Assembly: GCA_017882925.1 (NCBI GenBank)
Contig: JADGOM010000256.1
Coordinates: 1 to 36,411, forward strand
Source of the DNA: Acidimicrobiia bacterium
GTDB taxonomy: Bacteria; Actinomycetota; Acidimicrobiia; IMCC26256; Chersky-534
Reading direction: 5' to 3'
Length of the DNA: 36,411 nt
In this document: one piece after another, positions 14,778 to 23,251 of the stretch
Position numbering within the stretch: the stretch's first letter is position 1
Layout: each line of letters begins with the position of its first letter
Program-made: the position numbers and the translations under genes
The notes under the pieces: model-generated
The model's input: only the letters and a program-made list of their open reading frames with translations
Database searches by the model: none
Told to the model about the DNA's origin: nothing

Positions 14778-14921
14778 TCAGCTGGCGGTGGCGGCGACGA
14801 TCGGTTGGGCGAGCTTGGTAGCACCCTCAGACCCGAAGAAGCCGGCGTCACCTTGGGTGAAGACGCCGCCGTCCGCCGCGACGAGCCAATAGCCGTGACC
14901 AGACGGCGTCGAGGCTAGGAC
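14778..14921 (-). pseudogene. remnant of a fifth propeller paralogue: only its last C-terminal repeat
   Basis: [47 protein letters not shown]-stop matches the last repeat and C-terminus of the four neighbouring genes (e.g. ...[38 protein letters not shown]-stop). No NHL part or signal peptide upstream; the next copy's terminator hairpin follows instead. Confidence 0.8.
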
Positions 14922-15002
14922 GGGCGGCGCGCCCATCCGGGGATGCCCCTGTCCGTCTGCTGGACGGATGCCGGAAGCGGGGAAGGGGTCCGGACGCGCG
15001 AC

Positions 15003-15031
15003 GGGCGCCCGGCCTCGAGGACCGGGCGCCC
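15003..15031 (-). terminator. terminator-like hairpin after propeller gene A
   Basis: Perfect 10-bp stem GGGCGCCCGG / CCGGGCGCCC with 9-nt loop, 19 nt past the stop at 15050. Confidence 0.7.
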
Positions 15032-15049
15032 GCCACAAGGGCGTTGGGA

Positions 15050-15812
15050 TCAGGTGAGCGGGGAGGGCGTGGCGGCGGCGGCCACGATCGGCTGGACGAG
15101 CGGGGTTGCACCCTGCGAGCCGTAGAAGCCGGCGTCGCCATGCGTGAACACACCCCCGTCACTCGCGAACAACCAGTACCCCTTGCCCGTCGGCGTCGAA
15201 GCCGCGGCCACGATCGGCTTGGCCAGCGCAAGTGCGCCTTCCGAACCGAAGAACTTCGCGTCGCCGTGCGTGAACACGCCACCATCGGACGCGAAGAGCC
15301 AGTACCCCTTGCCCGTCGGCGTCGAAGCCGCGGCCACGATCGGCTTGGCCAGGGCAAGTGCGCCTTCCGAACCGAAGAAGTTCGCGTCACCGTGCGTGAA
15401 GACACCGCCGTCCGAGGCGAAGAGCCAGTAGCCCTTGCCGTCCGGCGTCGAAGCCGCGGCCACGATCGGCTTGGCCAGCTTGATGGCACCTTCGGAGCCG
15501 AAGAACTTCGCGTCGCCGTGCGTGAAGACCCCGCCGTCCGAGGCGAAGAGCCAGTAGCCCTTGCCGTCCGGCGTGGACGCCGCGGCCACGATCGGCTTCG
15601 CGAGCTTGAGCGCGCCCTCCGAACCGAAGAAGCCGGCGTCGCCGTGCGTGAAGACACCGCCGTCACCGGCGAAGAGCCAGTAGCCCAGTCCGGTCGGGGT
15701 CGACGCCATCGTCACGATCGGCTGCGCAAGCTTGATCCCACCCTCGGAGCCGAAGAACTTGGCGTTGCCGTGGGTGAACACACCACCGTCGGCCGCGGCC
15801 ATCAGGTAGCCC
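15050..15812 (-). repeat. 126-bp tandem repeats (six) in paralogue A
   Basis: The TGCGTGAACA motif recurs at 15141 and 15267 (126 bp); adjacent units across 15164-15415 are almost identical, including synonymous positions. Confidence 0.9.
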
Positions 15813-21170: not shown

Positions 21171-21186
21171 CACCATAGGACCGAAG
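21171..21186 (-). promoter_or_regulatory. promoter-like box of paralogue C
   Basis: Minus strand CTTCGGTCCTATGGTG; TATGGT 30 nt before ATG. Confidence 0.5.
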
Positions 21187-21331
21187 CCGACGGGTGCAAA
21201 GTGAAGGAACGGTGAGTTCGAGTGAACGGTTGCGGACCCCCGCGCGACGCGCGCCGTGCGCACAAGACGCGTCGGAGACCCGCGGAACGCGCGATTCACA
21301 GAAGAACGCGCGGGATCGGGAAGCCCGGTTC

Positions 21332-23209
21332 TTAGTTGGAAGTACCGGCGACGATCGGTTGCACGAGCTTCAACGCACCCTCGCTGCCGTAGAACGCGGC
21401 GTCGCCGTGGGTGAACACCCCACCGTCGCTGGCGAACAGCCAGTAGCCGGCACCCGTCGGGGTGGACACAGCAGCAACGATCGGCTGGTTGAGCTTCAGC
21501 GCGCCTTCGCTGCCGTAGAACGCGGCGTCGCCGTGCGTGAACACCCCACCGTCCGACGCGAACAGCCAGTAGCCGTGACCCGACGGCGTCGACGCGGCCG
21601 CCACGATCGGCTGGTTCAACTTCGTCCCACCCTCGGAGCCGAAGAACGCGGCATCGCCGTGGGTGAACACCCCACCGTCACTGGCGAAGAGCCAGTAGCC
21701 GTGGCCGGACGGGGTCGCAGCCGACGCGACGATCGGCTTCACCAACTTCAACCCGCCCTCGGAGCCGTAGAACGCGGCATCGCCGTGCGTGAACACCCCA
21801 CCATCCGACGCGAACAGCCAGTACCCGTGACCCGACGGCGTCGACGCCGCCGCCACGACCGGCTGGTTCAACTTCGTCCCACCCTGCGAGCCGAAGAAGC
21901 CGGCATCGCCGTGCGTGAACACCCCACCATCCGACGCGAACAGCCAGTACCCCTGCTTCGTCGGCGTCGCGGCCATGGTCACGATCGGCTTCACCAGCTT
22001 CAACGCGCCCTCGGAGCCGTAGAAGATCGAGCTCCCGTGGGTGAACACCCCACCGTCACTGGCGGCCATCAAGTAGCCCTGCGATGCGATCCCGCTGATG
22101 GCGCGGACCCGGTGGTTCCCACCGTCGGCGACGATCAGGTCGGACGTCGGGGAGATGGCGAGGCCGAACGGCCCCGAGACCTCGGACTTGGTCGCCGCCT
22201 GGCTGTCGCCGTTGTAGGCCGGGGTGCCGTCACCGAGGACGGTCGAGATGATCCCGTTCGCACCGATCCGACGCACGCGGTTTCCCAGGCTGTCGGCGAC
22301 GAACACATCGTCGGCGTTGTCGACGACCACGCCGCGCGGGGAGTTGAACGTGGCCGCGATCGCGGGTCCGCCGTCACCGCCGGAGCTCGATGCTCCGGTC
22401 CCGGCGATGGTGCTGATGATCCCGGTGCCGGCGCCGATCCGACGGATGCGATTGTTGCCCGCGTCGGAGATGACGAGGTTCTGCCCGGTGTCGAAGGCGA
22501 CGCTGACCGGAAGGTTCAGCTGCGCCGCGGTGGCCGCACCACCGTCGCCCGTGAAGCCCGCGGCGCCGGTGCCGGCGACGGTCGAGATCGTGCCGTCGGT
22601 CCCAACCCGCCGGACCTTGTTGTTGAGGTAGTCGGCGATGAGAAGGCGGCCGGCGCCGTCGAAGACCAGGCCCGAGGGCGCGTGCAGCTGGGCGAGGGTC
22701 GCGGCCAGGCCGTCGCCGAGCGAACCGGCCACCCCGGTCCCCGCGAAGGTGGAGATCGTCCCGGCCGGGGTGACCTTCCGGATCCGGTTGTTGTCGTAGT
22801 CGGCGATGTAGACGTTGCCGGCGCCGTCGACCGCAAGACCGTTGGGTCGGGCGAGCGCGGCCGAGGTCGCGGGACCGCCGTCGCCCGAGAACCCCGCGGT
22901 GCCCGTGCCCGCGAACGCGGTGATCGTGCCGTTCGGCGCGACCTTCCGGACCTCGGACGCCTCGAGGTCCGCGACGTAGAGGTTGCCCGCCTTGTCGTAG
23001 GCGACGCCGAAGGGGAGGTTGAGGGTGGCCGCCGTGGCCGGACCGTTGTCGCCGGAGGTTCCCAGGGTGCCGTTCCCCGCGATCGTGCTGACGGTCCCGG
23101 TCGAAGCCGCGGCCACGGCGTCGGCGGTGCCGACGACCGCGGCACCGATACCGCCCGTACCCACGAGCACGGCCAACGCGCCCGTCGCAATCCGTCGTCG
23201 CACGCGCAT
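21332..23209 (-). CDS. secreted NHL-repeat plus six-repeat protein, paralogue D
   Basis: [47 protein letters not shown]...; six NHL-type repeats, six 42-aa repeats, ends [10 protein letters not shown]. Confidence 0.9.
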   Translation of the reverse strand: [625 protein letters not shown]

Positions 23210-23235
23210 CGAACATCCCCCGGGTCGCGAGCTCG

Positions 23236-23251
23236 CACCCTAGGCCGGAAG
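23236..23251 (-). promoter_or_regulatory. promoter-like box of paralogue D
   Basis: Minus strand CTTCCGGCCTAGGGTG; TAGGGT 27 nt before ATG. Confidence 0.5.

Follow-up and report, generated by a model that had tools for sequence, protein, structure and literature searches.

A tandem array of two-propeller proteins in an Acidimicrobiia genome and its second module, an uncurated propeller also carried by wall enzymes and phage endolysins

The array and its genomic setting

The window, by which we mean the whole 36,411-nucleotide stretch of Acidimicrobiia DNA analyzed here, carries four consecutive paralogous genes on the minus strand. Gene A (15050..16975) encodes a 641-aa protein that opens with a signal-like segment and continues with six NHL blades, a proline-rich linker, and six blades of a second module made of 42-aa repeats, which we name M2. 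Genes B (17227..19086, 619 aa), C (19282..21141, 619 aa), and D (21332..23209, 625 aa) have the same architecture. All four translate cleanly at these coordinates with no internal stops, the NHL blades measure 54 to 57 aa and the M2 units 42 aa, with six of each per protein, and B to D align to A with 64 to 67% identity. The NHL propellers are encoded, again on the minus strand, at 15812..16864 in A (linker included), 17974..18990 in B, 20029..21045 in C, and 22079..23098 in D, and the M2 propellers at 15053..15811, 17230..17973, 19285..20028, and 21335..22078, respectively. For B and C, the frame stays open as far as alternative starts further upstream (GTG at 19242 and ATG at 21156, respectively), and the ATG starts given here retain the signal-like N terminus. 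Neither a C-terminal helix nor a sorting motif is present in the translations of A to D, and the chains stop a few residues past the last strand.

Downstream of gene A lies the relic of a lost fifth gene (14778..14936, minus strand), consisting of its last M2 unit and ending in its own TGA. One flank of the array holds genes for RNase J, FtsK, two MiaB/RimO-type radical SAM/TRAM enzymes, CinA, and RecA, and the other an AurF-like gene followed by TetR, branched-chain amino-acid ABC transporter, and DapB genes, all of which are ordinary neighbors. In a sister species of the same genus (G001), an array is found at the equivalent site between the AurF-like gene and RNase J; the G001 contigs break within it, and the counterpart of the relic is the end of an intact last array gene adjoining RNase J. 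The four paralogues, the relic, the signal-like start with no C-terminal anchor, and the prospect of tandem clustering in relatives had all been put forward in a first-pass annotation of this DNA, and each of them held.

The array genes are separated by gaps of about 190 to 250 bp, and separate promoters are plausible. TANNNT-like hexamers (TATGTT, TAGGGT, TATGGT, and TAGGGT) stand shortly before the starts of A to D and hint at the same possibility. On the plus strand, an antisense open frame of 1364 codons crosses the array (window positions 17110-21204); it probably arises as a side effect of the GC-rich, repetitive genes encoded on the opposite strand.

Fold of the two modules

The NHL half is a teneurin-type NHL propeller. 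The Pfam family TEN_NHL (PF25021) scores 105 to 124 bits in all four proteins, compared to a curated cutoff of 27.1, with E-values down to 8e-36, and NHL (PF01436) matches A to D with E-values down to 2e-30, so that the assignment made from the repeat pattern at first pass is far past chance. An AlphaFold2 model of protein D, built from an alignment of 35 sequences from the window and the fetched loci, has a mean pLDDT of 91 and falls below 50 only at residues 1 to 34, the signal region. Its NHL half, with pLDDT mostly between 90 and 98, adopts a six-bladed propeller fold for which Foldseek returns a teneurin-like protein, NHLRC2, and the designed protein Pizza6. The teneurin-like protein (PDB 9ifo) is among the best matches in both sequence and fold, and the similarity to the teneurin-type propeller extends over all blades. 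Unlike teneurins, however, A to D contain neither a YD-repeat shell nor a toxin domain and have a second propeller instead; no YD-repeat match was obtained with Pfam, and the proteins end after M2.

For M2, neither Pfam nor NCBIfam gave a credible match, and its profile found nothing beyond chance among PDB sequences (best E-value, 0.18). We rejected as spurious the Pfam matches of M2 to DUF834, SH3_YKFC_2nd, and zf_Tbcl, which score under the cutoff, and that of one M2 locus (L104) to Ribosomal_L24e, where the score is summed over the repeats and no single stretch passes. When modeled alone, the M2 of D reached a pLDDT of 95.4 and a pTM of 0.90, and its best 50 PDB matches in Foldseek were all propeller proteins, with TM-scores of about 0.5 to 0.6 and 8 to 16% identity and with no near structural relative among them. 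M2 is thus predicted to form a closed six-bladed propeller. That each protein would hold two propellers, and that the second module would be one of them, had been ventured from the repeats, and the models agree on both counts. The two-propeller array is real, and it represents a new arrangement of a known fold.

M2 in bacteria and phages

The same module is found well beyond the array. This genome has 38 M2 matches; besides the relic and the four genes of the array, they fall in no fewer than 23 further open reading frames, part of which are cut by contig ends, and single relatives reach at least 35. The occurrence is patchy: a full-length profile found M2 in 24 of 41 close genomes, and wider scans found it in 15 of 100 genomes of the class and 18 of 296 of the phylum. 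A plasmid-borne trait was considered and rejected, with no match in 72,556 plasmid records. The second module is not peculiar to the array, and since M2 is so widespread, it is of greater interest than the array itself. This uncurated propeller module is the larger find.

M2 sits at either the N or the C terminus of its fusions. In this genome, Pfam identifies as partners GH43, glucosaminidase, polysaccharide deacetylase, and transglycosylase-like domains, CAP, PG_binding_1 with YkuD, YkuD, and M15 carboxypeptidase, as well as subtilase (2) and GSDH (2). Among 62 M2 proteins of relatives, the partners are CAP (6), SpoIID (5), Amidase_2 (4), and subtilase (4), and more rarely YkuD, M23, and VanY (2 each). 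Most of the identified partners act on peptidoglycan; GSDH, beta-helix, and an unrecognized SGNH-like protein are not wall enzymes and count against a wall-binding role.

The ends of the bacterial modules bear on ring closure. C-terminal modules run from unit position 1 (GYW) to about 36, several N-terminal modules start near unit position 16 and finish near 13, and both kinds comprise six units in about 245 to 250 residues. The length is constant whatever the starting phase, as would follow from a ring whose chain may start at any of several points and not from an open solenoid. Whole-blade counts in 105 bacterial clusters gave six blades in 62 and five in 22, several of the latter being N-terminal modules that carry part of a sixth blade at each end, and others being degenerate or in interrupted frames. 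The M2 units of one relative (G052; L101 and L129-L131) have a period of about 51 residues, that is, an insertion of ∼9 residues per blade.

A viral scan with the four array M2s gave no matches, the patterns being too specific, and a scan of IMG/VR with a broader alignment found M2 at 79 loci in viral contigs. Pfam recognized Amidase_2 in 42 and GH25 in 2 of 66 viral M2 proteins, most of which match PHROG endolysin families (up to 36). Viral M2 is mostly the C-terminal part of endolysins, following the amidase or GH25 domain after a Pro/Gly linker, and is also found in phage tail proteins. This is the same site as that of the wall-binding domains of other endolysins, from which M2 differs in its predicted propeller fold. 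Only one of the 66 proteins contains a Pfam wall-binding family (PG_binding_1), and our literature search found no account of an endolysin with a propeller as its binding domain. Two of the viral contigs have a phage context with tail, tape-measure, tail-fiber, single-strand-annealing, and methyltransferase genes, and the phages carrying M2 presumably infect this lineage.

M2-like modules are also present in a tail-type protein of GX15bay (MK557849.1), a complete phage record from mangrove soil, the flanking part of which weakly matches a PHROG tail family. At this locus (L150:3055-6969), two six-unit modules lie ∼300 residues apart, and the GH25 annotation of the protein looks doubtful. Virion propellers have been linked to host recognition in phi11 Gp45, PRD1 P2, and phiKZ gp131C (PMC6115969); their sequences are different and their blades number five, six, and seven, and unlike them, M2 occurs as two tandem six-blade rings within one tail-type protein.

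Viral blade counts differ from the bacterial ones: two blades in 36, three in 33, six in 5, 12 in 2, and one in 2, with outliers of 11 blades in GX15bay, where one blade is degenerate, and 4 in a large degenerate tail-type protein. Two modules counted as two-blade (L207 and L225) look like three-blade modules with a degenerate third blade. None of the 79 viral loci encodes a compact lysin module of four or five blades. When the enzyme parts were clustered at 50% identity, 17 of the 25 clusters had a three-blade and 10 a two-blade member, so that the pattern does not come from one lineage. These numbers would be expected if one, two, or three chains together formed a closed six-blade ring, in which case two-blade chains would close as trimers and three-blade chains as dimers. 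In two viral proteins that look like wall enzymes (L220 and L222), a single terminal M2 blade with a shared tail was seen, and six-chain rings are possible. Among the RSL/BambL lectins, two-blade chains assemble into a six-blade ring. Like M2, these lectins have short repeated blades, and their chains parallel the viral two-blade modules, but they share no sequence match with M2 in Pfam or the PDB and sugar binding by M2 is putative. BambL itself is trimeric and hexavalent with a propeller fold (PMC8629787), a precedent for rings made of several chains.

Diversification of the NHL ring and proposed role of the array

The two halves of the array proteins differ in constraint. Among A to D, the M2 halves are 79 to 93% identical with an omega of 0.13 to 0.22, and the NHL halves are 56 to 73% identical with an omega of 0.41 to 0.68, all omega values in this work coming from few, diverged sequences. 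Since dS in M2 is similar to or above that in NHL, constraint explains the likeness of the M2 halves better than gene conversion, which we rejected as its source. Variation in NHL peaks at blade positions 27, 28, 30, 45, and 46, with an omega of 2.0 compared to 0.47 elsewhere; as these positions were chosen after inspection of the data, positions taken from A to D alone were tested in the held-out G001 pair, where they gave 1.51 compared to 0.40 elsewhere. With loops defined from the model strands only, omega was 1.64 in the last part of the D-A loop, immediately ahead of strand A, and 1.15 in the B-C loop, while the opposite A-B and C-D turns gave 0.47 and 0.39 (turns and strands, 0.39 to 0.49) and the whole long D-A loop 0.59. 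The D-A and B-C loops of a propeller share the same (top) face, and the variable loops were assigned to it from this general topology rather than from model coordinates. One-face diversification of the NHL rings in the array is likely, not proven. In TRIM proteins, NHL domains take their ligands via the top opening (PMC9634614).

Taken with the partner enzymes and the use of M2 in lysins, which make binding to a cell surface likely, these data lead us to favor a model in which M2 is a predicted surface-binding propeller, its target probably a wall glycan, that keeps an NHL recognition ring, diversified among the copies, at the envelope; we consider this likely. Each gene would encode a secreted protein of two six-bladed beta-propellers, and its C-terminal M2 ring would be a reusable module docking the protein onto the producer's envelope, most likely through a wall or capsule glycan common to these actinobacteria. 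By fusing M2 to peptidoglycan hydrolases, transpeptidases, deacetylases, and proteases, the lineage would hold these enzymes at the wall, and phages of soil bacteria would address the same target with M2, both as the part of their endolysins that binds and as a component of tail proteins. The N-terminal NHL ring would be the variable part, the copies having diverged mainly at loop positions of one face, and the array may thus combine one shared anchor with four distinct faces for recognition. The analysis itself shows the architecture, the predicted fold, the argument for a closed ring, the partner enzymes, the use by phages, and the difference in constraint; glycan binding by M2, its target in the producer's own wall, and ligand binding at the NHL face are what we infer from these patterns. 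The first-pass annotation had supposed that the proteins are released from the cell; with M2 on wall and other secreted enzymes, endolysins, and tail proteins, M2-mediated retention on the envelope is the likelier fate.

The partners could be read differently, with M2 binding an extracellular polymer (exopolysaccharide, chitin, or plant polysaccharide) and the fused enzymes and the array serving to bind a matrix or substrate. Such a role would suit the partners GH43, polysaccharide deacetylase, GSDH, and beta-helix proteins, and also the gene annotated as a chitinase that adjoins the GX15bay tail-type protein. The predominance of peptidoglycan-acting partners and the position of phage M2 at the usual site of an endolysin wall-binding domain nevertheless make it unlikely. 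Blade numbers that divide six do suggest multi-chain assembly, and M2 could be an oligomerization or stability scaffold with no ligand, its counts of one, two, three, and six blades reflecting assembly only; yet the single-chain six-blade modules that dominate in bacteria need no partner chain, and two full rings stand within tail proteins, so that we regard a pure scaffold as quite unlikely.

Two further explanations concern the array itself. Its NHL halves could be enzymes, namely, lyases or lactonases resembling Vgb, SGL, or phytase-like proteins, with its products acting as secreted isoenzymes anchored at the surface by M2. Pfam does match the families SGL, PhoX, Vgb_lyase, and phytase-like weakly, but these matches lie near or under the cutoffs (Vgb_lyase scores 24 to 28 compared to a cutoff of 50) while TEN_NHL and NHL match clearly, and the copies vary most on a single face, the one on which isoenzymes would be expected to keep a common active site unchanged; this is improbable. 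Alternatively, since M2 is common to host and phage, the array proteins could be surface decoys or barriers that fill the sites needed by phage M2 lysins and tails. If host and phage proteins bind one and the same target in the wall, a shared module is just as expected, and no defense genes were seen nearby, the array being flanked by the AurF-like and RNase J genes, which leaves a decoy function very improbable.

Returning to the envelope-docking model, its wider form, in which M2 is an undescribed six-bladed wall-binding family of actinobacteria and their phages, with endolysins that often share a ring as trimers or dimers and with host proteins in which it anchors wall enzymes and a diversifying NHL array, has in our judgment somewhat better than even chances. 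The ring arithmetic it predicts is open to a direct and cheap test through the mass of an assembled lysin. If it is true, the propeller would join the folds that serve as wall-binding domains of phage lysins, and the array would be a case of one-face diversification in a bacterial NHL propeller. Recognition of M2 would give a name to a common, uncurated module of a hard-to-culture soil lineage and predict where dozens of its secreted proteins may be located.
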